Positions 3,701 to 63,489 of a stretch of 64,000 nucleotides of DNA are shown here, piece after piece. A model generated the notes under the pieces. The model had not been told where the DNA came from. It did no database searches and saw nothing but the letters and a program-made list of their open reading frames with translations. This stretch comes from Halichondria panicea (taxonomy: Eukaryota; Porifera; Demospongiae; Suberitida; Halichondriidae). A program made the position numbers and the translations under genes. The stretch covers positions 1,433,001-1,497,000 of the forward strand of contig NC_087387.1 in NCBI RefSeq assembly GCF_963675165.1. The letters are read 5' to 3'. Positions within the stretch are counted from its first letter, which is position 1, and each line of letters begins with the position of its first letter.

Positions 3701-6700
3701 GAAAATGATGTAACTACGTGGAGGACTACAAGATGAGTACATGCATGTACATGGGGGACCACGAGATGAGCACATGCATGTACATGGGGGACCGCGAGAT
3801 TACATGCATGCACACGGGGGACCACGAGATTACATGCATGTACATGGGGGACCACGAGATTACATGCATGTACACGGGGGACCACGAGATTACATGCATG
3901 TACATGGGGGACCACGAGATTACATGCATGTACATGGGGGACCACGAGATTACATGCATGTACATGAGGGACCACGAGATGAGCACATGCATGTACATGG
4001 GGGACCACGAGATTACATGCATGTACATGGGGGACCACGAGATTACATGCATGTACATGAGGGACCACGAGATTACATGCATGTACATGGGGGACCACGA
4101 GATGAGCACATGCATGTACATGGGGGACCACGAGATTACATGCATGTACATGGGGGACCACAAGATTACATGCATGTACATGGGGGACCACAAGATTACA
4201 TGCATGTACATGGGGGACCACAAGATTACATGCATGTACATGGGGGACCACGAGATGAGTACATGCATGTACATGGGGGACCACGAGATTACATGCATGT
4301 ACATGGGGGACCACAAGATTACATGCATGTACATGGGGGACCACGAGATGAGTACATGCATGTACATGGGGGACCACAAGATGAGTACATGCATGTACAT
4401 GGGGGACCACGAGATAAGTACATGCATGTACATGGGGGACCACGAGATAAGTACATGCATGTACATGGAGGACCACGAGATAAGTACATGCATGTACATG
4501 GGGGACCACGAGATGAGTACATGCATGTGACTACGCGGGGGACCACGAGAGGACACTGCTCGGGCCTCTATATTTCCCCATATGCGTGTGTGATTTTACA
4601 GGTCTGTGTCAAGTACGTGCAGGAAGGGGCTCCAAACAAAGTCTGGTACGTAGCAGTCACCTTCTAATGACGGGAGACTTGGAGGCGAGTCCAATGGTGG
4701 AGAGAGGGTTGAGGAGCCGGTAGTTGGGTGAGTACTGTGTGTGTGTGTGTGTGTGTGGGCGTGAAGTGATGGAATGCCAGCTGCTCTAGGAGTGAATACG
4801 AGACGAACATTACTGTTGAGAGTGTGTGGACACAAACAACACCCTAGCTCAGCATACATCACAGGGGCACATCATCAATTGACATCCGAACGATTTCATA
4901 ATTATTATCACTCCGACAACAGACAGACTTAATGAGCATCAGGTGACTATTTTACATGTACAGGCAATGTTGATTGATATGTGTACATACACCTTCACAC
5001 TCCACACACCACACACACTCCACACACTAGCTCACCTTGACGATCATCTTGAGGCAGACCTCAGCAGAGGAGGCCATGACTTTTGCTGAGTTAGAGAGCA
5101 AGGCAATGAGTTGAGGGAGCATGAGTTCAGCAAAGAAAGAGAACTCTGACGTGAAGAGAGTGGCCATCAGACTCAGAGTGATGGACGCCTCTCGCACCAC
5201 TTGAGAGCGGAGGTCCTTCAACTGTGTGTGTGTGGTGTGTGTGGTGTGTGTGTGGTGTGTGTGTGTGTCAGGTGGCGGTTAAACGCATGTAAATGTATAA
5301 ATGGTGTAAATTCAAAATTTCAAAATTTCAAACTAAATCCACATCGAAAGTGAAAGGGTTAATAGAAGACATACTGTACATGTGGGTAAATACGTACGAT
5401 TGTGTCGGTACTCAGTACTTCTCTATAGGAGCTGCATGTGTGACAAGGTGTGCATGAAATAGACTCACCGACAGTACCATAGCTTCATCCATGGACCTGA
5501 TTAAAGACAGGATGTGGGTGTGGTCACTCGTCTCGTTCTTAACAACAGTCCGTAACTGCTTCAACTGCATTGAATAGACAATTAAAACAAAGCAAACATG
5601 ATACCATGTGCCATATTCCCGGGAAGTCAATGACAACTGTTGGCTAGGTTTCAAAAGATCGTAACTAGCCGTAAGCAAGTATACAGTAGTGTACAAACAT
5701 GTACTTCTATAGTGTGCTTACAAACTAATTGGCAAGACAACAATTAATGCTGTCAGTGAGGTATATACAATTTAATATGTAATTATACAGTACATGTATA
5801 ATTTGTCTAGTGCATGCAAACCTGTACAGTACATTTTCATTTATAATCAGTGCAAGGAACTTAATTATATACAGTCTGTGGAATGTGACGAACACGATGT
5901 CCAGTATTCGGCAGCACTAGCTACATTGTACAACATACATGTACGTATGTTGCACACGATGGCTAACTCACTGCGGTGATTCTTGTCTCCCAAGGCTTGC
6001 GTGTGTCGATCAATGTCGCTGTGATGGCCGCCGCGGCTTTCTCCACATCGTGAAGTGTGAACAGCTGTGTGTGTGTGTGTGTGTGTGGAGTGAGAACACT
6101 TTGTATCAAGGCTGGATACAAGTGCAGGGTAAAAATAGTACATGTACATTCGGGAATACTACTTCACATATTATCAGGTACAGGGTAATTGGTTTTTGTT
6201 GATACAAATGTTCGTACAGATATGTACATGTAGATCACCCAGTTGTTAACAGGCCACATTTTCATACAGCTCAAAAGTGATGAGATGTAATATGTATGCA
6301 CAGTCATGTCTAAACAGCAGTGCACGTGGCTTAATGAGCCAGTACCCTTGAGGGGATGTATACATGTCATGTGACACTCACATTCATGCTGGGAGCGTCC
6401 TCAAAGCTCTTGGTGAAGTCCTCCTCACTGACTGCCCCGCTGCCTCCCTTACTGGCAGCTGTGGGGGGTGGTCTGGACCGACCCCCTGTAGAGTGGGTGG
6501 AGCCTAATGTCCGGGCACTAACGTTGCTGCTACCAGCCGAGTTCAGTGAGGCACGGTCGTCATCAACATCTACATCCTGACCACATCAAAGGTTGTGTGT
6601 GCATGTAGGTGTGACCACATCAAAGGGTGATCGTTACCACATCAAACTGTGTATTGTGTATGAACATTGCATTGTATTGTGTGTAATATACATACATTTA

Positions 6701-10511: not shown

Positions 10512-13500
10512 TCACTTGAACTTGTTCTTTCTCCGAGTTTTCTTGTTGTTAGGTGAATCATCAGATTGTCCATCGGTCTTGGTTTCCTCGTCAACAGCTG
10601 GTTCTTGTTGCTCCTTCAATTTCTGTTTCATCTGCTTCTTCTTGCGGGGAGGAGGTGTGGGTTGTGCCTCATCTTCTTCGTCTGCAATCTGATTGGACGC
10701 CTTTAGCTCAAGGGTGGGGCTAGATTCGGTACTGGGCGACTTTAATGATCGTCTAGCAACAGGAACTGGGGGTGTGGTATCCCCTTTAAGATTCTGTCTG
10801 GCTTTTGGAACAGGCCTTTGCACTTCAGTATTCTCCATGCTGGTTGGCGAAGGGGTTTTTTGTTGGGCCTCCTGTAATTAAATTTATTAATTTGTCACAC
10901 TTTGTTTGTGCAAAGAGAACGGAGCAGTTGGGATAAATGAAAAAGTTATGCAGTGGGTGAATGTAAGGGCAATACTGTTATGAGATGCTTCAATTAGCGA
11001 GTGCAAAACAATCCAAGATGTGATATTTTAATTTTGGTTTAAAGTATGGCCAGTAGGAAACAATTATGATCTAACTATTAAGATAATGCTACAGCGAGTT
11101 AATCTCTGACAAAAGTATGGCTATAAATTATCAGTATATCAATGAAAGTCAGTGTTACAAATAGATCACCTGCTCATTCCCAGAGTCATCTGAGTCCTCA
11201 GTGTCTGTTGAGGTGTCCACACCGTCAGGGGAATCCCCCTCCTTCTCTTTAGGAGGTGTAGTGATAGTGCGCAGGGCGTCCGAGACAATCTGGGCAGCCA
11301 CAGTTGGAGGTGGTGGTCGAGCAGGGGCGCTCTTGATGAATGTGTACTTATTAGTGCTGCTCCCCACAGAGTTGGCTGTATGGTCAGGTGTGTGTGAAAA
11401 GAGAAGAGGGATGGTACCAGAGGTCCGACATGCGTGCACGAATCACTACAAGTGCTAGTGCATTTGGCCTGCATGTTATCACATGACATGACCGCAATGA
11501 CATCAATGCACTGAACTTGTAGTGATTCGTGCACGCATGTCAGACCTCCTCTGGGATGATACTGAATACTACGACACCAAGTTTGTGGTATTCAAGCGTG
11601 AATTTTGCGAGAGTTAAACATCATGTAAGAGACTAATGATGCATGAAAGGTGTATTACAAAGAAGCCATAGGACAGTAGGTAGTTGTATACTTGAATACA
11701 TACCTCTAGTGTGCACGGCTGTCATTTCCTTGAAGCACTCTCTACACGTCCTCTCCAGTTTCCCTCCTCCCTCTCCGCCCCCAGAGACCACACTCCCTTC
11801 TCCGGTGACGAGGGACACACGATGAGGGGAACAAGACGTGCACACAACACGCCCACACCGACGACAATGGTGCTTCCGTTGAAACGCCGAGAATTTGGTA
11901 GAGCAGATCATACACTCTTTAGACATAGAGTCTGGTACCCATACTGGGCGTGTGATCACCTGCTGCTGGCTGTCCGACACTGCGTGGGTGGGTGTGAGGA
12001 GTGAGGGGTGTGTGGGGTGTGGGTGGAGGAGGTACATGTATATATGGAAACCTTCAACAGAGAGTGATCATTCAAGGGTTTAAAGAATGCATCTAGGCAT
12101 GTAATTGTTTAACACTGAAGTTGAATGTACATGTACGTACATTTTATTGTATAAGAATAATAAACAAGTTATGATAATAATGATTAATATAGATGACTCA
12201 CAAGTCTTTGCAACCCTTGATATGTGCTTCTGAAGATTGGCTATCCAGTTGGCTTTGTCAGCAGCAGATTGTCCGAATACATGAAATGATTTGTTGGCAT
12301 GACTGATTTGAAAGGCATTAGCCACATCTGTGCAAGGGAGGAGACAAACGACCAAACAAGGACGTGTGTTATTAGCAGTGTAAACACAGATCATACAAGT
12401 TCTGGGAGTATTTACAGCCTATAATACACTAAGTGAATTCTTTGAAGTCTTTTGCTACCCATTCTATTTTTTAACAGCTTTTTCGATTACATACTGTGGC
12501 CATGATTGGTTGTAGTGTCCCAAATCCCAGGGATGAGGGACACTGTAATTGGTATAACTGGCAGCTTAGATAGTAAGGAGCGGCTTTTAGGCACACACAA
12601 AAGCAACTAATAATGTTAGCATAAAATTTAATTACCACAAGTAAACAAACAAAAGCATTAATGGTTGCTCTGTGCAATATAATTGTATGGAAACCAATCC
12701 ACACACTACATGTAATTACGTAAAAGGCTTACAACTACTATTTGTATTTTTTAACCTACATGTATTTTGTACTCTACCACAGTAGTCGGTTAATATAATT
12801 ATAACACCCGCTACTTCCAATGCACACTGTACATACACCACCATCTGATACTATAATTAGGTCAACACCACCAGCACAGTAAGCTACACACGATCTGAAC
12901 CACCAGCACAGTAAAGGTACACACGATCTGAACCACCAGCACAGTAAAGCTACACACGATCTGAACCACCAGCACAGTAAAGGTACACACGATCTGAACC
13001 ACCAGCACAGTAAAGCTACACACGATCTGAACCACCAGCACAGTAAAGGTACACACGATCTGAACCACCAGCACAGTAAAGCTACACACGATCTGAACCA
13101 CCAGCACAGTAAAGCTACACCACCAGCACAGTAAGCTACACACGATCTGAACCACCAGCACAGTAAAGCTACACCACCAGCACAGTAAGCTACACACGAT
13201 CTGAACCACCAGCACAGTAAGCTACACCACCAGCACAGTAAAGCTACACACGATCTGAACCACCAGCACAGTAAGCTACACCACCAGCACAGTAAAGCTA
13301 CACACGATCTGAACCACCAGCACAGTAAAGCTACACACGATCTGAACCACCAGCACAGTAAAGGTACACACGATCTGAACCACCAGCACAGTAAAGGTAC
13401 ACACGATCTGAACCACCAGCACAGTAAAGCTACACACGATCTGAACCACCAGCACAGTAAAGCTACACACGATCTGAACCACCAGCACAGTAAAGGTACA

Positions 13501-14584
13501 CACGATCTGAACCACCAGCACAGTAAAGCTACACACGATCTGAACCACCAGCACAGTAAAGGTACACACGATCTGAACCACCAGCACAGTAAAGGTACAC
13601 ACGATCTGAACCACCAGCACAGTAAAGCTACACACGATCTGAACCACCAGCACAGTAAAGCTACACCACCAGCACAGTAAAGCTACACCACCAGCACAGT
13701 AAAGCTACACCACCAGCACAGTAAGCTACACCACCAGCACAGTAAGCTACACCGTACATACACGATCTGAACCACCAGCACAGTAAGCTACACTGTACAT
13801 ACACGATCTGAACCACTAGCACAGCAAGCTACACCACCAGCACAGTAAGCTACACCGTACATACACGATCTGAACCACTAGCACAGTAAAGCTACACTGT
13901 ACACACGATCTGAACTATCAGCACAGTAAAGCTACACCGTACATACACGAATGATCTGATGCTAGTATATAGGTCGAGGACTCGTCCCCATAGTCTCACC
14001 TAGATTATCCTCATCTGTCTCAGAGGCGAAGTCAGCATCTACTCTGGGCTGATAGAAACAGTCTGCACTCACTGACATTTGAGAGAGGGGCAGAATCACT
14101 TGATTGCTATAGAGACCCGCGACAATTTTTCCATATACCTGCAAAATGGGAAAAAGCTAATAAATCTTGGGACGATATCCATTGCTTGTGCGAAAGCATG
14201 CGCGTATTTTTTTTAACTCGATGATATAGCTGATGTACATTTGTATGCTGATCAACTTACTAGTATGTCATTGAACAAGAAAAACTGTCGTTTCTTGAGT
14301 CCTTTACGGCATACTTTATACAACACCCCTTCGCGTATAAATATCCTCCCTGGAACCAATAGCACCGCTCCCCCAGCAAACTTGTTCTGAATCTCAGTGA
14401 TCTTCTCGATGTTGAAGTCAGATTGAGCCAAGGCTGCCTCAGCCTGCACAAAATACACAATTTATGAAAACTACTCAAACATGTCAAAGATATAAATTGT
14501 GTGGGTAGCTGAAGCTATCCTTACCTCGGTCATATGAACATTGGCTGCATTTACTTGACCTCCTTTCTTCTTGAATATGCTCAT
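9833..14584 (-). CDS. Phafin-like PH-FYVE protein with long C-terminal extension
   Basis: Endosomal phosphoinositide-binding protein of the PLEKHF (phafin) type. Eight phased exons give 603 residues: 14584-14525, 14443-14261, 14138-14000, 12327-12202, 11979-11704, 11375-11170, 10871-10516, 10298-9833. A PH domain spans about residues 35-165 (VPGRIFIREGVLYKVCRKG, RQFFLFNDILVYG, ending NLQKHISRV). A FYVE zinc finger follows at about 180-250, with WVPDS, CxxC, RKHHCRRCG and VVC: the PI(3)P-binding signature. Vertebrate phafins end soon after the FYVE domain (about 250-280 residues). Here some 340 further residues follow, low-complexity: a proline-rich part (RPPPPT), a Lys-rich stretch (PPPRKKKQMKQKLKEQ), a GxGVEGGPG repeat array around residues 475-515, and a basic end (GRRSGRRRNKFK). 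Start lies 188 bp from the divergent XPNPEP1 ATG. Confidence 0.88.
10422..10508. repeat. (GCAC)n / (CA)n microsatellite
   Basis: About 50 bp of GCAC units grade into about 36 bp of CA repeats, a few bases from the splice donor of phafin exon 7. Confidence 0.9.
11417..11554. mobile_element. hAT-like MITE, AGAGGAGGT family, copy 1
   Basis: Terminal inverted repeats of about 38 bp: CCAGAGGTCCGACATGCGTG at the left, the complement of CCAGAGGAGGTCTGACATGC at the right, continuing through CACGAATCACTACAAG. Flanks GATGGTA and GATGATA match 6 of 7, consistent with a short target duplication. In a phafin intron. Confidence 0.75.
12866..13960. repeat. Minisatellite, 33-bp and about 18-bp units, in a phafin intron
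   Basis: Over 1 kb of head-to-tail units built from ACCACCAGCACAGTAAAGCT followed by ACACACGATCTGA (33 bp), with AAAGG/AAAGC variants. Interspersed 18-19-bp units lack the CACGATCTGA half. The right end degrades into longer units with TGTACATACACGATC. The reverse strand stays open for over 100 codons (repeating VVQIVCSFTVL), a side effect of the period. It lies between phased exons at 14000 and 12327. Confidence 0.92.
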
Positions 14585-23731: not shown

Positions 23732-26700
23732 TCAGTGTGGTAAAGGTGGTAGGGGCATCGATACTCTCCGAGAATGGGGTTCTGTAATGTTCTGCATTGA
23801 CATCTCTATGAAACGTCTTCTCTCTTGAAGAGTGTGATATTGCTGACGCAGCATTAAGAGACGTCCATGGGCACTGGGAAAGTAAAAATAAAAATAATGC
23901 GTATACAGGGTAGTCAACGTAAGCAACTGATTGTCACATGACAGCATTGTCAACTACACTGCAGCATCAGTTTAATCACTCTTATTCTCTTATTTATGGG
24001 CTCATGGTATAATGTACACCCTCGACTTACTCTTGCAAGCTTTGTTTCCTTCTTTGTTTCTCCCTCTTGCTACAAGGAATGTCGGCCAGGCGTCTCGCTG
24101 CCTCTATAATCCTCTCCTCAATTTCCAGCTCCTTTTGCAACAGTGATATGCTCTCGTCTGATATGTCTGCCGTATACAGGTCTACACTGTGGGGGCGTGT
24201 TGCTCCCAGTAAGGGGTGGGCGGAGCCTCGTTGATCATCCTCCCCCACTGTTGTTGACCGTTGTATTGATTTACGTCCTGCATGTGGGCAGAGAATACAA
24301 TAACACATAGTACCGTGTGTACATGTACGGATGTAGCATGGCCTTTGCTTACACAGCATGCATGCTACAAAAACATGAATGGAGGAAATTATCACAAAAC
24401 AACTCCACCCCAAGTTTTTAAATCAACAATGTAATCATACGTATAATTATGTATAGTACATGACAGTTTATAGCTATGCTCCTCTATTCATTCAATGCCT
24501 CTTACTCTTGTGTAATTTTTTTATGGATTGCTGAGGTCTTTTGATTGATGAGAAGTTGTTCCTTCGCGGCGGGGGCAGTGGAGGGGGGAAATCATCATCA
24601 GAGGAGGAGTCCTGAGAAACACACATTTTGTATCATGTAATGTACATAATTATCGTGATGACAGGTACACATTTAAGGTACATGCAGAAAATTTAACGGT
24701 AGTTATATAGACATGCAGTTTGAGGTACATGTAAAATGGACAATTGTGAAAAGCTCCTTGCTGTACAAGTAAAATCTGCAAAACCCCACTGCTACTTAGA
24801 CTCGCCAGCCAGCCCTTCTTCGGGGTAAGGGACTGGTGGATTTCCTATCTGAGAGTTGTGCCGGTGGAATTTTAATGAGTTGCATGACATCATGTATGAC
24901 ATCATCATGTGGTTTGTAATGTCTATATGCGATATGCGTGGGTTGCAAACAGCTACACAATTACAAATAAGCTCCTCTTGCTTAGTTTGTGGCAGAGAAA
25001 CCAAGAAACATTGAGAACTGGTGGTAGAAGGCTACTGTCAAGCCCTTTCCATCCCCACATACTTTCAGACTGGAAAGATTTTCTCAAATGTAAGACAAGT
25101 GGTGCAAATCATCTACATACTAAAGTCACTGGAGGATTTGTCTCAATTGCAGCTTGATTGATAAGCTCTGCTTGGTCGCTTAATCTTGCACTAGCACAGT
25201 CTTGCCCATCCATTATTTTGTTATTATCATGCGTTCTACCACAAAGAAACTAACTAAGCGATACTGTGGGCCTAAGAATGTCACATGACATTGATACTGC
25301 ACTCTGATTGGTCATTACCAGATTCAAGTAACGGCACAACTCTCAGATAGGCAATCCACCAGTCCCTTACCCCGAGGAAGGGCTGGCTGGCGAGTCTAAC
25401 TGCTACTGTATACCGCACACACACACACCTTATTAGGACATGGTGTGGTGAGTAGCTCCCCATCAGCTGACAGACAATGCTCAGAGTAGTAATCAATCAG
25501 TTCACTCAGTCTCAGAAACGATCTTTTGGCTCCAAACAGCTCGTAACGTGTCTTTACCCCTTGCTTTGTGTCTATCCTGTAGTGCTTGACTTTGCCGTTG
25601 TGTGTGAGTGACAGTGAGTGCTCCCCCTCACGATTTTGTGACTCTCGAACCAGAAAACAATCGGACTTGACGGATCCGAGTGCTTTTTCAGCTGCTGGTC
25701 GAGAAATCATACCATGGTACCAACTGTGAGGAAAGAACAGAAAAAATAATAACACATAGCGGGTAATTTTCGTATGAACTACCCATTTAAATATGACGTA
25801 TGTTGAATCTATTGCGGTATAATTTTCGTATGATGTGCTCTTCAATACGAATTATACGAACATTTCCATCAGACGAAAATACCCCGCTATACTGTACATA
25901 CACACTGGAAATTAAACTATACTAAGTATATAATATGCAAATATAGACATACCTAATACCCAAGTGATCCATCACACACGTACAATGGCCACATGCAGTA
26001 CGCATAATTATTAAAACAGTTTGAATAGTTGTCAGTGCTATTTCCACTCACGTGTAGGAGGAGTGGTGTTTGTGCAGAGGAGAAGAGGGCGTGGCAGCTG
26101 CTTGAGGCCCTGACGTACGCACGTCTTTCCCCCAGCTCCTCTTTTTAGCTCCTGCATGTCCGCTCTTAGCAGGGGACTTTGGAGAGGCTGGTGAGGCTCG
26201 TGACGGTGACATCTGTGGCGGAGAGAGGTGTGGTCGTGCATGGAGTGGGGGGTGTGACTGCGAGGCTGGGGAGCTCGGTGGGAGGGTCAATAATGGAGGC
26301 TCATTCTCCACCTGTACAGAGGGTCATGTGATAGTCATGTGACTGGTTGGGTGGTATAGTTATATCAGAGGAGGTCTGACACGAGTACCTCGATTAAGCT
26401 AATTTGAGGTAATGCCTTTACTGTTGCATTTGCACATGACCAAGCCTATCTAATCGAGGTACTTGTGTCGGACCACCTCTGTATAGTCATGTGATATATC
26501 TTACAGGAGGGATGGAGGTGACTGAGGAAGGGGAGGAGCAGCCAGAGTCTTCATCAGAGTCTTCAGAGATAACAGGTTGCCGGATCATACTGAGAGCCTT
26601 CTCCTATAGCAACAGATCTATCAATATAATATATATACACACGCCATTTGCAGATTGCATATGCTAGCTTTATTATTTAAGTTGCGAGCTCTCAAAGCTA

Positions 26701-29163
26701 ATGTAAGTGTGCTCTTACCATCCTCAGCCTGTCTGAATTCCGACGAGTATAACTGCGTCTAAACGCTGCAAAAAACACAAACAAAAGAACTTCAATAATA
26801 CACGTAATAACTCCACCACACAGGCACTGTAATGTGCTTCTTCTTAAATGGCATTTTCAAGGTCAACACAATGTACATGCACTGGTTTCTGGCTCACCCT
26901 GCTGTAGTTTCCTAGCCGAGGTGTGGATCACAGAGAGGGCGACTTGCAACTGACCAAGATGCCATGGCTTCAACAAAACCTGCAGTGATGCATGTGTATG
27001 GGTTATAGTTATATATTTATTATATATAGTTTAAGCGAATATACGATAAATGCACAGAGAAAAGAAACTAGCTGCACGTATATTATGGCATGAGTTCATT
27101 CAGGGTGGGTAATTTGAACCATTCAATGTTGTGATTAGGAAAACTGCATAGAAGTAAAAAAAAAACCATAGGCCTTTAGTGTTCCATGCTAGGTCATAAA
27201 GTATATATAAATACACAACAGAGCCTGAGGGTACTGTATAGCGGGTAATTTTGGTTGGTGCAAATTTTCGTACGAACTATAAAAAATTATATTCATTAAA
27301 TATTTAAATATTCGTACAGCTCAGGATAGTGACGTTGAACCTATTGAGCCAGAAAAAATTCGCAGTTTATTTTCGTACGTGTTCTACTGACAAAAAAAAA
27401 CACGAAAATGTTTACCCTAAATGTGCATTGTGATTGGAATGCTTTCATTTAATTATTCATTGCATGTTTTGTAAACCACAAACACAACATTCCACAAACA
27501 TAACATTCCTGTGATGTATCAGTATAAATAGTTATAGTGTAACATAAACACTTGTAGGCTAATTGTCCAAAATGAAATCAAACAGAAAACAAACAAATCA
27601 AAAAACAGTACGAAAAGAAACGGAAAAAAAAAGAAAAAAAGGCAGAAAAAGAATTCAATAATAAACTAACAATAAGCATTTGAACAAGGGCCGGTGGTCT
27701 ATAGTATTTGGACACTCTTTGGGAGAGTTGTCCATTGTGGATTTATTTATTTTTAAACCTTTTGACAACATGCAGCCCTTAATGGTGTTTCTATCCTGAG
27801 TTAGGTCATTTCGCTAAATTAATTATTATAACATTGAGGTAGAAAATTAGACAATCAAAACTTCAAGTTATGAGCACTCAAAGTTAGCTACGAATAAAAA
27901 CTACGAATAAAAACACCAATGGTAGCGATCTTTCTCTGCCGCCATTTCACAACTACTTACACTTCTTATCACTCCCTCGCCCAAAAAAGTCTTGGCAGGC
28001 AAGATTGTTTCTTTACTGTGAGCTAAGACTTTTAAGTCTCGGCTTTACATTTATACGTATATAAACTACACTTTTTCTTCAAAATTGGAACAGCACATAA
28101 ATATCACAATAAAAAGGATCGAGGTCGTAAATATGAAAAAGCTGGGAGCAGCCCACTGTTGACTCTAGCTCACCTGATGTGAGCCCACTAGATAGTCCTC
28201 TAGCTGGGCGGCCTGGATGAGTGCTCGACAAGTCTCCGAGGGAGAGTGGGTGGAGTTCTTACAGATGAGCAGGGGGGAGTACGAGTCTATGAACTTGTCA
28301 TGTGATATTCGGACGGGGTAGCCACAAGATTGGATGAGGGCTGTGTCCAGAACACGAAGGTGTTGGAGCTGAGTCAGCACGTGGGAGGAGTCAAATTTTT
28401 TATCCTGGAACAACAAAAATATAGAATGTTTTGCGAGCCATCAAACATATTTTGTGTACTTGTGGTGATGATGTTATCGTTACATTCCACACAAATAATA
28501 TGTGCATGCATGTACATGTAACTAATTATATAATCGCATGTACTGATCAGGTGTGTAACATGAGTAAGGTAACATGAGTAATTGCAGGGTGGGGTGTTAG
28601 AAATGAGTATGTGTGTGAAAAATAAAACGTATGTCAATAAAAGGGTGACGACGAAATTGATACAACAAGATCAATGATACCCAAACACACACACAGTACA
28701 TGTACGTGGTGGCATTGAAGAATGCTGCTTATAGCCACGCGGTTGGAAAAGTGCCATAATTATAATTATGCCTTATTATATATTTACACTGTACTTCGGT
28801 AGGTAGGCGGGGGGGGGGGGGACATGATATTCATGTGCACAGCACGTACACAAGCTGTCATTTATTACCCTAAAGAATGCTCTAATATGCCTCTTGTTTA
28901 CTACCCATGCACCTTTCTGGTTCTCACCACAACACATGGTGATAGAGTCGGACAATAAAACCTAATAGGGAGCTAGGAATGTACACTCCAGCTGGTGTAC
29001 AATTGAATTATGCAGCACAAAGGGCACACTGTATTACATGTAAGCACTGAAATGTTATTGCTGCAAAAGCCTACTAATGCTCATAGTCCAGTTTTCAAAA
29101 TGTGCCCTAACTGTACACATATCACTGGCTACAGTAATACAGTATTCAGCACACCCACGCACG

Positions 29164-29202
<39 letters not shown>

Positions 29203-29203
29203 C

Positions 29204-29257
<54 letters not shown>

Positions 29258-32200
29258 CGTACTGTCTCCTCTTCTCCAGTACATAGAGTGAGCACAAAGT
29301 GTGGTTGACAAAAGGTCACCTCCTCGCACACTCTACTCATACAGTCTCTCGCTCGGTTCGTCAGAGAGTGGGCGTGGTCAGGCAGAATAACATCAGGACT
29401 AGACTCCATCATCATCTGTAAATAGATCGACTGATAATAACCGTCACCTCGCAAACATTCTAGGTACATACGGTAAATAATTATAGTTCTGTATTTGGTA
29501 AGCAATTAAAATCTTGTGCACACCAAGATCTTAATAATATCTACATAATAATTATACATGTACAGTGAGTATAATACATGTACGTACAGAAACAGATTTG
29601 CTAGTCTTAAGAGTGGTATAATTATGTTTTAAGTAACAGATGTGTCAAACCTTTGAGATATCTTGGAGTACACTGTTAGTAGAGGTGCGGAGGAGGCGTG
29701 TCAGGTCATGTGACACTGAGTGTAGCTTATTCATTCTCGGCCAATTTTCAGTCACCACATAACTCTGCTCTCCAGTAAAGTGGGACACCACAAAAGTATC
29801 AGACTGCAGAGAGATTGCGAGTAAATATATCAAAGCAACATTGTAACATGATAAAATGGAACTAATTATGAAAGGCAAAACACTGCTATAGTAATAGGTA
29901 TGGTCATTACTGAGAGTTCAAAAAGGTCATCTCCCAAAGATCACTTTCTCTAGAAGCTCACAGTTAGAAAACTCAGCCTATAAAACTATTGCATAAATTA
30001 TATGTACTACTAAACTCAAACAAAATAATGACCTCATTCACACAAATACATATCACGTACGTCTGTTTCGTAGCATGTGTCTCCACTTCCATCACAAGTG
30101 GTGGAGAGCGCAGTGAGTAGCTCATGAGTGGAGTCCAGACCAACACTCTGCAGTAACCCATCCGTCTGTGGGGGGTACGTGGGTGTGGGGGGTACGTGGG
30201 TGTGGGGAGTACGTGGGGGCAAAGGTCAATACATACATGCAGGGATGTGTCCACACTAGTACTGGTCGGTGGTGGTTGGTACTAACCACCTCTTAATTAC
30301 CACATGTTGTTATAAGGGAAAATTTGTTTAGCCACAAACTTAGGCATATCGATATACATTGTGCATACCTCAGTCTAGCGTGGATGGTTTTACATGTACA
30401 TGTAGTTACTTATACAGTAGTACATTTTAAGGCCTCATTTGTAGCGAAATAATTATACAAGTTGCATCATGCTTAATTAACCGTCTAAAGTGATGCTGCT
30501 ACATTCTTCAGAGTCCACACCCAGATATAAAAATGGGACAAAGACGCTTATATATTTCTACTTGCGAGCAAACTTCAAGTCTTCAGGTGTGACTGTGCTC
30601 ACCTTGTGAAAGGTATCCATGAGTGTTTGGTTGAACTCCACTGGGACTGTCTCCCACTCCACACCTTCCTCTTCGTATTGCTCCTGTGTGGAGGAGGGAG
30701 GGGCATAGCATCAGGTGAATCACATGTATGATCATGTGATCTAGCTATTACACAAACTGACTTTGAGACCCCAAAAAGAGATCACCACTCTATTAACAAT
30801 AATTATTATCTCCAAGAAGCATACAATTACATGTATATGCATGTTGATTGGCTACACATTTGTACACTGCCTAAGCCTTGTTGTGTTGTACTGTCTCCAG
30901 GACAACTACTGAGCATGCATGGGTGCACACAAACAGTGACTTGTACTGTCGTTCTCAAAAGTGCAGACTAGCACATAAATTATAAGGTTCAATTAGGGGT
31001 GAAATACGTTCTCTCAAGGGTGATCAACCTAAACCAACAGGATAGCAACACATAGATAGTAGGAGTGCATGAATACACTCCTGATAGTAGCTAGTTTAAC
31101 CCTCACCTGTTCCCACACGAAAAGCCTTTGACAGTAGAGGTTGTGCAGTGCCTCTGAGCAATAGCGGCCCACCAAGTCAGGGAGGGTGTTACGGTAACTG
31201 TCTGTCCACATTCCAGGCTGATTCACACACAGCACTCGACGGGGGGTCTCAGTGGGGGGTGGGGCAAGTTCAGAGTTCAACCAGCTCACTGGATAACCAA
31301 AATGCAATTGTAACTTGGCAGTAGCACTATATTTTTAGCCAAGTACTTAATTGTAGGTATATAAACAAACTACCTACCAAACATATTTCCCATTAAAAAA
31401 TCCCTTTCACTTACCTGTCCAAGCCACAAGATAGGTGTACAGCTGTTGTGCCAAGATGGTGCCTGACTCAGTGTGTAGTTGCACTCCTAGGTAACTGCTA
31501 GCTTCACCTCCCTCCAATAGTAGCCTCACTGCACTCATCAGCGCCAGGTAATTGTCTCTTAATGGCAGGGGCATACCCAATTCCTCCAGTTTTTCCCTCA
31601 CAACTTCATTATGTGCCAGCACCTGCGAAAATGCAATTTGCTGTTAATTAAGTGAAAAATTGGGGCAATAAGAGGAATATTCAAAATAGCACAATAATAC
31701 ACCTTTGATGCTATAACTAGAACGTAATAATTATGTTCACTAGAGTAATAATAATTATTGTAAGAGAGTTAGTAAACAAAACAATGAGCGACACCTCCTA
31801 CACATTTTCGTTTCCTAAAGAGCAAAGGAAATAATAATGGTGTCAGGGGTAAGATTTCATGGTATGCTTAATAGGTACAAACTAGGAAACCAAGTACAAA
31901 CAGGATGTCTGGCTATACTAAACACTGCGGTTGGGGAGAGAACCAAGTTACTGGGCCAGCCTGTAAACACACCATACAGAGCTAACCTAGTGTTGATGGG
32001 TAATCACACTTATATTAGTTCAAACAAACTTGTGATTTAAGGGGACCAATTATTATGAAGACCTTATAAGACTCCAATTCAAATTATATAGTAATGAATA
32101 AGTTTATGATTGCAGTGCAAAAAGCGTATCAAATATACAGCTCTTAATTATAATACCTCGAAATTATTCAGTGTTTTGGTGTTCAGTAGCATACAGGAGA

Positions 32201-32746
32201 AGTGCCCTCCAGTGGTCTCCATGGTAGCAGGGTCCACATAGAGAGAGGTAGTGAGCACACACTCGGGTAGTCCCTCATGGCTTGTCAGTAGAGAGAGCAA
32301 CTGAACTGCAGCCATTAGTGTGCCTGTGTGTTTGGAGCTGGCTTGAGAGAGGAGAGAGGCAACCACACTCTGGAATATAGCAGTCTTGTGTGCAGCCTTG
32401 CAGCCATAGAGTAGCAGACACTGATCGTCTTCTTGCATTTTCAGGTCGTGCAGAATGTTTGCAGCAAGTCTGTTGGCTTGCACGGGGATGGTGTGGGTAG
32501 ATGGGGACAGGTAGAGAGATACATTCCTACCAATGTGTGCCTGTGCAGAGGAATGATATGAGTGCTGCATGCAGTGAGCTTTACATGTGTGCAGAGATAT
32601 ATAGTTTATTCATGGCTAGCTAAAGCATGAATATGACTACTGCTCACATGCTGTATTCCTCGCATGTAGCGACTTTCTAAGCACGATAGTAGATTGCTGT
32701 CACTGAGCTCTTGGAGAGTGCACAGATCATCGCCATGGCATTCCAT
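23732..32746 (-). CDS. Myosin-like degenerate motor + IQ + SH2 protein
   Basis: Seventeen exons in unbroken phase give 957 residues: 32746-32648, 32540-32157, 31622-31415, 31288-31107, 30683-30603, 30165-30061, 29803-29651, 29415-29263, 28404-28174, 26979-26898, 26765-26719, 26603-26505, 26311-26052, 25723-25429, 24611-24506, 24277-24031, 23873-23732. Residues 1-532 track a myosin head in order: DDLCTLQELSDSNLLSCLESRY at the start, an LLLYGCKAAHKT segment where the P-loop belongs (79-86), a relay-helix match (YCSEALHNLYCQRLFVWEQEQYEEEGVEW), a HFTGEQSYVV match, and LRVLDTALIQSCGYPVRISHDKF. The P-loop GESGAGKT, switch I and switch II DIxGFE are not recognisable, so ATPase activity is doubtful. 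LQQAFRRSYTRR (across exons 10/11) fits an IQ motif. A Pro/Ser linker leads to an SH2 domain (695-793) with WYHG and FLVRES including the phosphotyrosine Arg. The tail has a PPPLPPPRR SH3-type ligand and a Glu/Arg coiled segment. Starts 266 bp from divergent SEC61G. Confidence 0.85.
24796..25398. mobile_element. Mutator-like non-autonomous element, long TIRs, 9-bp target duplication
   Basis: Inverted ends of about 68 bp begin TAGACTCGCCAGCCAGCCCT and run through GGGACTGGTGGAT and CAACTCTCAGATAGG. The 9-bp sequence ACTGCTACT flanks both sides exactly (24787-24795 and 25399-25407). A perfect 9-bp duplication with long TIRs is characteristic of Mutator-like elements. No transposase frame inside about 600 bp. 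It sits 22 bp beyond the donor of the SH2 exon. Confidence 0.85.
25753..25897. mobile_element. MITE, TAGCGGGTAATTTTCGTA type
   Basis: CATAGCGGGTAATTTTCGTA at the left mirrors CGAAAATACCCCGCTATACT at the right. Interior GTTGAATCTATTGCGGTA is shared with copies at 27233 and 42343. In an intron next to the SH2 exon. Confidence 0.7.
26366..26481. mobile_element. hAT-like MITE, AGAGGAGGT family, copy 3
   Basis: CAGAGGAGGTCTGACACGAG and TACCTCGATTA arms are mirrored at the right end (TCGAGGTACTTGTGTCGGAC, CACCTCTG). Flanks TATAGTTA and TATAGTCA match 7 of 8. In an intron of the myosin-SH2 gene. Confidence 0.75.
27233..27419. mobile_element. MITE, TAGCGGGTAATTTTCG type, eroded
   Basis: Begins ACTGTATAGCGGGTAATTTT and ends ACGAAAATGTTTACCCT. 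The interior (CAGCTCAGGATAGTGACGTT) is identical to part of the 42343 copy. In the 1.2-kb intron after the myosin-head exons; the remainder of that intron is A-rich and holds nothing recognised. Confidence 0.65.
29152..29256. repeat. (CA)n microsatellite
   Basis: About 100 bp of CA repeats with a few GCAC/CCAC interruptions, ending six bases before a splice donor of the myosin-SH2 gene. Confidence 0.9.
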
Positions 32747-33011: not shown

Positions 33012-33376
<365 letters not shown>

Positions 33377-39289: not shown

Positions 39290-40891
39290 CTAATTGACAG
39301 AAATAATCTGAGAATTGATCTTGGGAACAAGCAACAATTTGTTGCCTTGGGCAACATGAATGAGATGTGTGTCACGTGACACTGACTGTCCAGAGCTACG
39401 ACTGTATTTTTTGTACACCCTTCTCTCGGCTGCTAAACTCCTCTCCTTGAGAGACTTTATTTGCGATCGAAGTTGATCGTACCGCGTGTGCAGTTCTGTC
39501 TTCTGTTGTCTCATAACCTCTACTTCCGATTCAAGACCACCCACTTCTTCTCTCTTTCTCTTTCGAGCGACTTGAGCAGCGGTCTTGTTCTTTCCTCGCC
39601 GACGCCACTCTTTCATAAATGCCACCTCAATATCGTTCAGTTTAGCTAGGTCCAACAGATGGTTGAACTCTTCGACAGGCATTGAGATCAATTTACTACG
39701 AGAAGTGGGCTTGCTTGGAGTGGAAAGGTTGGGTACCAGCAGCTTGTGTATAATGTCATCTTCATGCTTTCCAAACAAAATTGTGCTCTTTGTTTTCGTT
39801 TGCTCTGCAGATGGACTCTGTTTTGGTTTTGGTTTTACATAATCATCGTTGTCAGTAGAACTCGGAGATGGAGCTTCGTAACTAGTTTCTGGAGAAGAGG
39901 GATACTGCGGAGACATCATCGTCACTGGTTCAGGAGAATCGTTAATTCTTTTCGGAGGTGGCGGAAGAAAAAGGTCCATATCGAGGTTCAAAGAAGAGCC
40001 CCAAAGTTGTTGTAAGTTATTCTCCTCCCAGGGCGAGTCTTGGTTCATTGGTGAAGATACTGTAGCAGCGCTTACTGGACTGCTTTGTCCGGAGGTGTCA
40101 GTCAGCAAACTATCGGTGGACGGGGCTGGATACAATCTAGGCTGCATCCGGAAGTCATTGACGAACGGATCAACTTGTTTTTCGGTATTCTGAAACACAT
40201 CCATCGAAGATTCTTTGGAAACAGCTTCTCCCCAAATTCCAGTGGAATTGTCAGTAATGTTTTCATTCTCGACTGGTGCAGAGTTTCCGTAACTGAACTG
40301 AAGTGGCTGATCAGGAATTAAATAATCAGGTGCAGCTTCTTGTTTAAGAAAAGGATTCGCCAATAGCGCTGACAAATCAAAATCGAGTTTGCCTGGGATG
40401 GTGTTATCAAAAGAAAAAGTATCCTTTTCAAACGGATTGAAAATGTTGCTTGCATCTTTTTGAGGGATGAAGTTGTTCGATGATGTGGTTTGGATTATGT
40501 TCTCGTTGTCCACTGGGTATGCTTGAATATTAGGGTCATAGTAATTGTTCTGCTGTGGGACAGTGGCAAAAACATCAGTATAGGTGCTCAAATACTTCCA
40601 CGATTTGTCCATAGGTATGTCGTAAGTCTTTGGTCGAGAATAGTCATTTCCGAAGGAATGCGTCTGCTTGTTTAAGTATGCAGTATCGCTCCCAGAGCCA
40701 ACTTGTTTCAGTGTGTTGAAAGCCTGCAATAAAAAAAACATGGTTAAATTCCTGACAATATAAATCTATAACAATGCTAAAGTTGCATGATTTCATCAAT
40801 ATTATTTGAGTTATCTCACCTTTGTAATTTCACTATCCTCTGGTTGAGGTTTGATGATAGGCTGAGCCAGTAGAGGGCCTGTAATGACCAT
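39290..40891 (-). CDS. CNC-type bZIP transcription factor (NFE2L/NRF-like)
   Basis: Cap'n'collar bZIP factor; relatives dimerise with small Maf proteins on Maf/antioxidant response elements. Two exons, 40891-40820 and a large 40723-39290, give 501 residues. The CNC segment (LISMPVEEFNHLL..LAKLNDIEVAFMKEWRRRGKNK, about 366-403) directly precedes the basic region KTAAQVARKRKREE and a leucine zipper. The end has HVAQGNKLLLVPK, matching the Neh3-type GNxxLVPK motif of NRF proteins. The basic region reads NKTAAQVARKRK where vertebrate CNC proteins have NxxAAQxCRKRK: the redox-sensitive Cys is Ala. No ETGE or DLG KEAP1 degron is visible in the acidic, Asn/Ser/Pro-rich N-terminal half, though DSPEPVTMMSPQYPSSP resembles a phosphodegron. 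Divergent from COPZ1. Confidence 0.92.
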
Positions 40892-59554: not shown

Positions 59555-61054
59555 ATGCATGGAATTTCTTCTCGACTAAGTGCAAGAAAATCTCGCAGGC
59601 AATCTGCTGGGATCAAACCTCAGCGACAGAAGCTATCTTTTTTCAAAACTCTCAAGTCTGTTCTCCTTTGCTCATTTTACAGCAAAGAAAATGTTGTTAA
59701 TGAGGGGAAATCTGTCGAGGTAAATAAATTGCATTTGATATTCAAGTATTTGCAATTGATATTATTTTTCTGTAGTTTGCTAGCTATAAATGGAGTGAAC
59801 ATGCACAATTTAACATGATACTGATAACAAGTTTATTCTTAACAACACTAGTACATATTATTATTATTATTGTTACAGGAGATTGAACGACAACCTGGCA
59901 ACCTTGAGCCCACTACTAGTACTTTTGACTCCGATTATGATGATAATATCAGTATCATCAGCCTTGGAGAGACCACATACGTAGGAGCTGGCTCCTTGTC
60001 AAGAAGTATAGTATAATTATGTATGACCATAGAATGTTAGCCGAATGATTACGTTGTTAATGTGCTTCTCATAAGTTATACTATATTTTGTTGCTATGCA
60101 GAGTCTCCTTCCTCGTCAGCTACCCCAGGCAAAAAAACGTTGCCTCCCATCAATCACAAGAATGTTAACTCTGCACTGAAAAGTATACCAAAGCACGGGA
60201 GCTGGAAGGTCATTACTTGTGGAAGCTCCTCAACCTCAACAAGCATCAAGGAGCTGTCAGATACCAATATTGTGGCCACGATTGATGAGCTCCAAAAGAA
60301 AATTGATGTGCTTCAGCAGACAAAAAGTGCTAACCTGCAAAAACTGTTGCAGCTGATTGAACAAAATAAGAAAGATGTAAAACCACAAGTACTGCTGAAA
60401 AACCTAAAGGAGACAAAAATAAGTCTAAGAAAACTTCTAAGCGAAAACGAATCCTTTGAAAGCAAACTCAAAGAGCTTGCTAGGTCTTGTTCTAAGACGA
60501 CAGGTATTGAAGAAAGTGGCCCAACAAAATTTGATGGTAGAGCTGTGAGCAACACCACTACAAATCTACCGAGTAGCAGCCAAGTGCATCTGAATACAGT
60601 TGCACCTGCACCTTCGTCAGAAAAAGTGGTGAGATTCAATTCTCTCCCTACAGAGAATGTCCGAGCTCAGTCTTGCCATCCAGATAACGAAATAGGCCTT
60701 CCCCTGCGGCACAGCTCGGCTCTACGAAGATTCCTGTTGGCCCCGAGTGCCAGCACATCATCAAGAAGTGAACGTAGGCTAACTGAAATGAGAAGGGTTG
60801 AGCGAGAGTCGCACGAGCCCATGTTTGGCAAGAGGCCACGAGCTGCCCACCACTCACGCATTCGCAGCGTGACACAGAACATACAAGAATACCTGCCTTA
60901 CGAGTGCGAGCACCTTGATAGTGACTCCGAAGATGAATCCTCAGTCTCAAGGAAGTACGTCAGACAACACCCTGGAAATGAGGGAATGAGGAAATTCGAG
61001 CTTACACAATGTGCAGCTCCCCAAACCACACGTCACTGTGAGAATATAAACTGA
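59555..61054 (+). CDS. Orphan three-exon gene, tandem copy A
   Basis: Not recognised. Exons 59555-59719, 59879-60005 and 60102-61054 join in phase to 414 residues. The N-terminus is basic (SARKSRRQSAGIKPQRQK), then an acidic piece (STFDSDYDDNISIISLG). A likely coiled coil lies at about residues 145-225 (IDELQKKIDVLQQTKSANLQ, LKETKISLRKLLSENESF). A Ser/Arg-rich, Pro-poor half follows with LRRFLLAPSASTSSRSERRL and an acidic DSDSEDESS patch near the end. No membrane segment or signal peptide. An in-frame extension upstream of the ATG (FQIFWPTDLFTLSSSKCRA) is also conserved in copy B but has no ATG in copy A. Intact in both copies with mostly silent or mild changes, which argues for function. Could be a scaffold or nuclear protein; unknown. 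Confidence 0.75.
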
Positions 61055-62049: not shown

Positions 62050-63489
62050 ATGATGCATGGAATTTCTCGACTGAGTGCAAGAAAATCTCGCAGGCAATCT
62101 GCTGGGATCAAGTCTCAGCGACAGAAGCTGTCCTTTTTCAAAACTCTCAAGTCTGTTCTCCTTTGCTCATTTTACAGCAAAGATGATGTGGTTGTCCCTT
62201 CTAATGAGGGGAGATCTGCCGAGGTAAATGAATTGTGACTTATTTTTCTGTAGTTTGCTAGCTAAAATAATAGAGTGAACATGCACGATTCTATTATTAG
62301 ATAATAATAATAATTGTTACAGAAGATTGAACAACAACCTGGCAACCTTGAGCCCACTACTAGTACTTTGGACTCCGATTATGATGATGATATCAGTATC
62401 ATCAGCCTTGGAGAGACCACATACGTAGGAGCTGGCTCCTTGTCAAGAAGTATAGTATAATTATGTATGGCCATAGAATGTTAGCTGAATGATTACGTCA
62501 TTAATGTGCTTATCACTATATTTTTTTGCTATGCAGAGTCTCCTTCCTTGTCAGCTACCCCAGGCAAAAAAACGTTGCCTCCCATCAATCACAAGAATGT
62601 TAACTCTGCACTGAAAAGTATACCAAAGCACGGGAGCTGGAAGGTCATTACTTGTGGAAGCTCCTCCACCTCAACAAGCACCAAGGAGCTGTCAGATACC
62701 AATCTTGTGGCCACAATTGATGAGCTCCAAAAGAAAATTGATGTGCTTGAGCAAACAAAAAGTACTAACCTGCAAAAACTGTTGCAGCTGATTGAGCAAA
62801 ATAAGAAAGACGTAAAACCACAAGTACTGCTGAAAAACCTGAAGGAGACAAAAATAAGCCTAAGAAAACTTCTAAGCAAAAACGAATCCTTTGAAAGCAA
62901 ACTCAAAGAGCTTACTAGGTCTTGTTCTAAGACGACAGGTATTGAAGAAAGTGGCCCAACAAAATTTGATGGTAGAGCTGTGAGCAACACCACTACAAAT
63001 CTACCGAGTAGCAGCCAAGTGCATCTGAATACAGTTGCACCTGCACCTTCGTCAGAAAAAGTGGTGAGATTCAATCCACTTCCTACAGAGAATGTCCGAG
63101 CTCAGTCCTGCCATCCAGATAACGAAATAGGCCTTCCCCTACGGCACAGCTCGGCTCTACGAAGATTCCTGTTGGCCCCGAGTGCCAGCACATCATCAAG
63201 AAGTGAACGTAGGCTAAACGAAATGAGGAGGATTGAGCGAGAGTCGCACGAGCCCATGTTTGGCAAGAGGCCACGAGCTGCCCACCACTCACGCATCCGC
63301 AGCGTGACACAGAATGTACAAGAATACCTGCCTTACGAGTGCGAGCACCTTGACAGTGACTCCGAAGATGAATCCTCAGTCTCAAGGAAGTACGTTAGAC
63401 AACACCCTGGAAATGAGGGAATGAGGAAATTTGAGCTTACACAATGTGCAGCTCCCCAAACCACACGTCACTGTGAGAATATGAACTGA
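62050..63489 (+). CDS. Orphan three-exon gene, tandem copy B
   Basis: Paralog of the gene at 59555, same strand. Exons 62050-62223, 62323-62449 and 62537-63489 join in phase to 417 residues. Exons 2 and 3 have exactly the same lengths as in copy A. Exon 1 differs by in-frame indels (MMHGIS instead of MHGISS; a few residues added at KDDVVVPSNEGRSAE). Exon 3 differs at only about a dozen residues, several conservative (for example KKIDVLEQTKSTN against KKIDVLQQTKSAN). Promoter-like and 3' blocks are also duplicated. Introns are shorter than in copy A. Not recognised as a known family. Confidence 0.75.

Follow-up and report, generated by a model that had tools for sequence, protein, structure and literature searches.

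Background

Class XXVIII myosins, recorded from Xenopus, chicken, some fishes and Nematostella, have a tail composed of an IQ motif, a short coiled coil and an SH2 domain, according to the available sections of PMC2375034. "Myosin III-like" proteins with an SH2 domain, which is C-terminal in filastereans, are described from choanoflagellates and filastereans, and a wider group uniting the MyTH4 myosins with myosin III has been proposed (PMC3942036, in the sections available). A myosin head deprived of ATP chemistry is represented by Drosophila Dachs, which does not bind ATP, shows no detectable ATPase activity, binds F-actin and is proposed to be a scaffold; its accumulation correlates with junctional tension, and a myosin-like activity is left open (PMC12828244, in the accessible part). 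Myosins with an SH2 domain and a myosin dead for ATP are, then, already in print separately, and the combination of the two in an SH2 pseudo-myosin did not turn up in searches of open-licence PMC papers, including the accessible parts of PMC3942036, PMC2375034 and PMC5583752.

Here we analyze a gene from the sponge Halichondria panicea, contained in a 64,000-nucleotide stretch of genomic DNA (the window), that appears to encode such a combination. The preliminary description of this locus knew of no SH2 domain in any vertebrate myosin, which is wrong in view of the class XXVIII proteins of Xenopus, chicken and some fishes; its suspicion that SH2 myosins exist in other holozoans was correct for choanoflagellates and filastereans.

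Gene structure and domain architecture

The 17 exons of the gene join into a single open frame, 957 codons long before the stop, with GT-AG boundaries at all 16 introns, in agreement with the exon positions and preserved phase originally proposed (Table 1). The closest public protein in the homolog search, with 924 aa and six member sequences, is "uncharacterized protein LOC135343755 isoform X2 [Halichondria panicea]", which is identical to the window protein except for 33 residues skipped at the start of exon 13 and aligns back onto the window exon for exon. A more distant relative, P0002, is encoded by a single uninterrupted 904-aa frame on an 8,357-base contig, which suggests a transcript origin, and has the same order of parts: degenerate head, IQ-like helix, SH2 domain and hairpin.

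Table 1. Features of the H. panicea SH2 pseudo-myosin gene, in window coordinates
Feature	Position	Strand	Basis
Entire coding gene LOC135343755, 17 exons, 957 aa	23732..32746	-	splice model, public annotation
Degenerate myosin head, exons 1-9, residues 1-532	28174..32746	-	Pfam, alignments, structural model
Former P-loop, residues 79-86, GCKAAHKT in place of GESGAGKT	32382..32405	-	alignment to myosins
Former switch I site, residues 119-127, motif gone	32259..32285	-	alignment to myosins
Former switch II site, residues 249-258, DIxGFE gone	31206..31235	-	alignment to myosins
Presumed relay helix region, residues 272-306, exons 4-5	30639..31166	-	25/35 identical to P0002
Presumed SH1 helix and converter, residues 456-545, exons 9-10, kept	26941..28404	-	alignments
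IQ-like motif, residues 557-568, exons 10-11	26740..26907	-	by eye
Pro/Ser-rich linker, residues 576-694, exons 12-13 (609-641 skipped in isoform X2)	26054..26603	-	
SH2 domain, residues 696-774, exon 14, R721 in intact FLVRES	25486..25722	-	Pfam
Conserved helical hairpin, residues 866-939, exons 16-17, weakly HR1-like	23789..24167	-	structural model, identity to P0002

The Pfam Myosin_head profile matches the window protein with 94.2 bits (cut-off 33.3), the match spanning residues 217-533 only, equivalent to profile positions 334-676. The preceding 216 residues, including the former P-loop, give weaker alignments to myosin that are not significant alone, and their myosin origin is suggested by these alignments together with the relative P0002 and the structural model. 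Up to the lever the head has approximately 545 residues, compared with the 679 positions of the profile, consistent with the shortened myosin-like head of the preliminary description. The predicted structure adopts the myosin motor fold, a likeness that is partly built in because 11 of the 13 rows in the underlying alignment are other myosins.

When the loops were aligned with vertebrate myosins IIIa (P0004) and Ic (P0015) as references, all three elements required of an active motor were found to be lost: the P-loop reads GCKAAHKT (YGCKAAHKT with the preceding residue, exactly as first noted), and the sites of switch I (NDNSSRFGK) and switch II (DI(F/Y)GFE), previously called unrecognizable, align to TSHEGLPEC and CVNQWT, respectively. 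A search of the window in six frames with patterns for the intact P-loop, switch I and switch II retrieved none of the three. Runs of four or more missing residues within the head add up to 177 relative to myosin IIIa and 151 relative to Ic, and the large ones common to both references comprise 18 residues ahead of the P-loop, 11 and 41-45 residues on the N- and C-terminal sides of switch I, respectively, and two further segments of 20-24 and 27 residues, the last of which we take to be the site of the actin-contacting cardiomyopathy loop. The ordinary state elsewhere in the H. panicea genome is an intact GESGAGKT, found at 7 of the 8 loci behind the top 8 among the 96 myosin-head matches listed; the eighth locus (L003) is, judging by its position, another exon of the gene at L002.

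Downstream of the head, a single IQ-like motif, LQQAFRRSYTRR, can be spotted by eye, and the Pfam IQ profile has no match in the 957-residue protein; the IQ motif announced earlier stands as a resemblance and not as a profile match. A Pro/Ser-rich linker separates it from the SH2 domain, as previously described, and this domain is matched over the full profile (1-77 of 77) with 62.3 bits against a cut-off of 21. The arginine of the FLVRES motif, likewise reported as intact, is present both here and in P0002. Among the best 60 of 251 matches, the closest likenesses are the SH2 domains of RasGAP, SYK, PLC-gamma, SHP2 and ABL.

Beyond the SH2 domain, residues 866-939 are predicted to form two helices, with pLDDT values mostly of 80-90, a feature that is absent from the earlier reading of the sequence. 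This hairpin resembles the HR1 repeat, a Rho-binding antiparallel coiled coil, in that both the window protein and P0002 match profile positions 2-63 of 67 (best E 1e-4), that is, most of the HR1 profile, but the score of the window's tail lies below the Pfam threshold (20.6 vs 33.1 bits), and the LemA and Uds1 profiles fit this tail nearly as well. None of 10 control tails (2 reversed and 8 shuffled with the hydrophobic pattern kept) matched HR1 at E 0.1, and one of the 10 matched a different family at E 0.002. We treat the HR1 likeness as a weak lead suggested by the sequence and not as an assignment. A resemblance to the cytohesin-binding CUPID domain was dropped (E 0.07-0.12, covering only profile positions 104-129 of 136), as were the PDB matches of the tail, mostly 20-26 residues of engineered repeat proteins that look like chance. 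The search for homologs of the tail alone returned the gene itself as the sole match among 55 candidates and missed P0002 too, so it says little about absence. Of the SH3-ligand-like tail initially proposed, there remain proline stretches (approximately residues 803-808 and 951-956) without a counterpart in P0002; what is conserved in the tail is the helical hairpin.

Pattern of conservation

P0002 scores 117.4 bits against Myosin_head, its SH2 domain is also above the Pfam cut-off, and 348 of 868 aligned residues (40%) are identical to the window protein. Its P-loop, GYYGTGKK, is less eroded and keeps GxxxxGK, which makes nucleotide binding by P0002 conceivable; switch I and switch II are gone in this protein as well. 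The runs missing from the sponge head relative to both references are largely missing from P0002 too (18 of 18 residues before the P-loop, 5 of 11 before switch I, 38-42 of the 41-45 after it, all of the 20-24-residue run and 19 of 27 in the putative cardiomyopathy-loop run). The comparison, which involves two distinct sequences (the window protein with its isoform X2, and P0002), reveals very uneven identity, with 25 of 35 residues in the presumed relay region, 48 of 76 in the hairpin, 46 of 80 in the SH2 domain, 38 of 89 in the presumed SH1/converter and just 2 of 16 in the switch II region. The frame of the head (presumed relay, SH1/converter, lever), the SH2 domain and the hairpin are kept and the active site is not, an unevenness that would fit the expectation for a scaffold.

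Origin of the SH2 fusion

The succession of myosin head, IQ motif (in the sponge, the IQ-like motif seen by eye) and SH2 domain resembles that of class XXVIII, and head and SH2 are also shared with the myosin III-like proteins of choanoflagellates and filastereans, both groups being compared here by description from the available sections of PMC2375034 and PMC3942036. The sponge protein differs from class XXVIII, whose heads are likewise known here by description, in having lost the nucleotide motifs and extensive parts of the head and in the conserved hairpin after the SH2 domain, which goes unmentioned for the class in those sections of PMC2375034; candidates for the short coiled coil of the class would be, in the structural model, a helix at 537-582 and this hairpin (P0001 numbering). 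The best head matches were myosins VIIa, XV and X and, in the homolog search, IIIa, all within the wider group of PMC3942036, as delineated in its accessible part. No Pfam match was found in the 957 residues to the MyTH4 or FERM domains of myosin VII, X and XV tails or to a protein kinase domain, the N-terminal trait of myosin III. No protein named as class XXVIII was among those obtained in word-filtered homolog searches, and a profile search of the 8000 candidates sharing most words yielded ordinary myosins, with P0002 missing from the list.

We find it reasonably probable that the protein belongs, as a sponge representative with a degenerated motor, to class XXVIII (class 28) or to the myosin III-like SH2 myosins of holozoans, and that the SH2 fusion was inherited. 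The similar tail plan, the holozoan distribution of SH2 myosins and the affinities of the head all point in this direction, and so does the genome: among the matches listed (at least 96 to myosin heads and at least 71 to SH2 domains), no SH2 domain lies nearer to a myosin head than 21 kb (on opposite strands) or 32 kb (on the same strand), because of which this may be the only SH2 myosin of H. panicea. Against this, the list of heads is a lower bound, with 65 of 129 candidates scored, and other equally degenerate heads could be missed, given that the 96 do not include the head encoded in the window itself; moreover, in a tree of 13 heads that covers none of classes VII, X, XV and XXVIII, and in which long branches meet, P0002 and the window protein join on a very long branch and no class is resolved. 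The same divergence leaves room for an independent event in sponges, by which a degenerate myosin from a different class acquired an SH2 exon, as does the hairpin that the available text of PMC2375034 does not mention for class XXVIII. Such a fusion seems unlikely to us, given that a known old class already has SH2 following IQ and that two origins are less economical. The inherited fusion is a proposition on origin and is compatible with the role as an adaptor considered below.

Proposed function

The best explanation of these data, and a likely one, is that the gene encodes a maintained pseudo-myosin with the function of an adaptor. The protein would be a myosin head devoid of the nucleotide motifs and of several large segments, with the relay, SH1/converter and lever kept as a frame and the ATP cycle presumably absent. 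The IQ-like helix probably bears a calmodulin-type light chain; the SH2 domain, in which the phosphate-binding arginine is preserved, could dock onto phosphotyrosines of kinases, receptors or their substrates; and the hairpin might bind a further partner, which could be a Rho-type GTPase should the HR1 likeness be real. From the sequence, we would best infer an adaptor in tyrosine-kinase signaling. Its best functional precedent, by likeness of working and not by kinship, may be Dachs, with which it shares an atypical myosin head and a proposed role as a signaling scaffold; the sponge protein would similarly be an ATP-independent myosin-head scaffold, here addressed by phosphotyrosine. The two differ in that Dachs binds F-actin and no SH2 domain is mentioned for it in the accessible part of PMC12828244. 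The direct link to actin proposed in the preliminary description is unsupported, and F-actin binding is less likely for the sponge protein because the 27-residue segment, putatively the cardiomyopathy loop, is missing.

That the protein retains some weak or unusual motor activity, or binds actin, strikes us as quite improbable. The retention of the relay and SH1/converter, the partial P-loop of P0002 and the ATP-independent binding of F-actin by Dachs (PMC12828244, in the sections available) could be read in this way, but none of the P-loop, switch I and switch II survives, and 151-177 reference residues are missing as well. The long branch of the H. panicea head (1.74, vs 0.62 for P0002, in the 13-head tree) might indicate a decaying pseudogene or a false join of two genes; these readings, hardly credible in our opinion, are rejected because every exon is in frame and the same chain is found in P0002 and in the public annotation. 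The gene is a real, maintained pseudo-myosin, and the preliminary description was right that it is not decayed and that a myosin-derived head with lost loops, an IQ-like motif and an SH2 domain belong to one protein. More tentatively, and with considerable doubt, one may envisage an animal lineage of pseudo-myosins, kept across a long evolutionary distance as tyrosine-kinase-to-Rho adaptors, in which a nucleotide-free and possibly actin-free frame is combined with a phosphotyrosine reader and a Rho-binding-like hairpin. If the preferred reading as a maintained adaptor is true, an early-branching animal has retained a motor solely as a frame and connected it to phosphotyrosine signaling. The protein would then offer a natural case for asking which parts of the head merit keeping without ATP (the relay, converter and lever apparently do, the active site does not) and a sponge test case, alongside Dachs, for ATP-independent myosin scaffolds.

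Other features of the window

Intron 14 contains, just downstream of the SH2 exon, a 604-base element (24796-25399) with 68-base inverted ends (97% complementary) that looks like a MITE. On the opposite strand, a SEC61G-like gene (33012-33268; SecE family, E 8e-15) begins at a distance of 266 bases from the start codon of the myosin, an arrangement that suggests a divergent promoter region shared by the two genes. Two open frames, 60041-61054 and 62485-63489, which have no Pfam match at E 0.01, are 96.7% identical over 980 aligned bases and are apparently a recent tandem duplicate. A Maf-type bZIP domain (E 3e-13) is encoded in a long frame without interruptions at 39290-40765 on the minus strand, and minisatellite arrays at 3715-4550 and 12867-13666, with 30- and 33-base units in about 26 and 25 copies, have several frames open.
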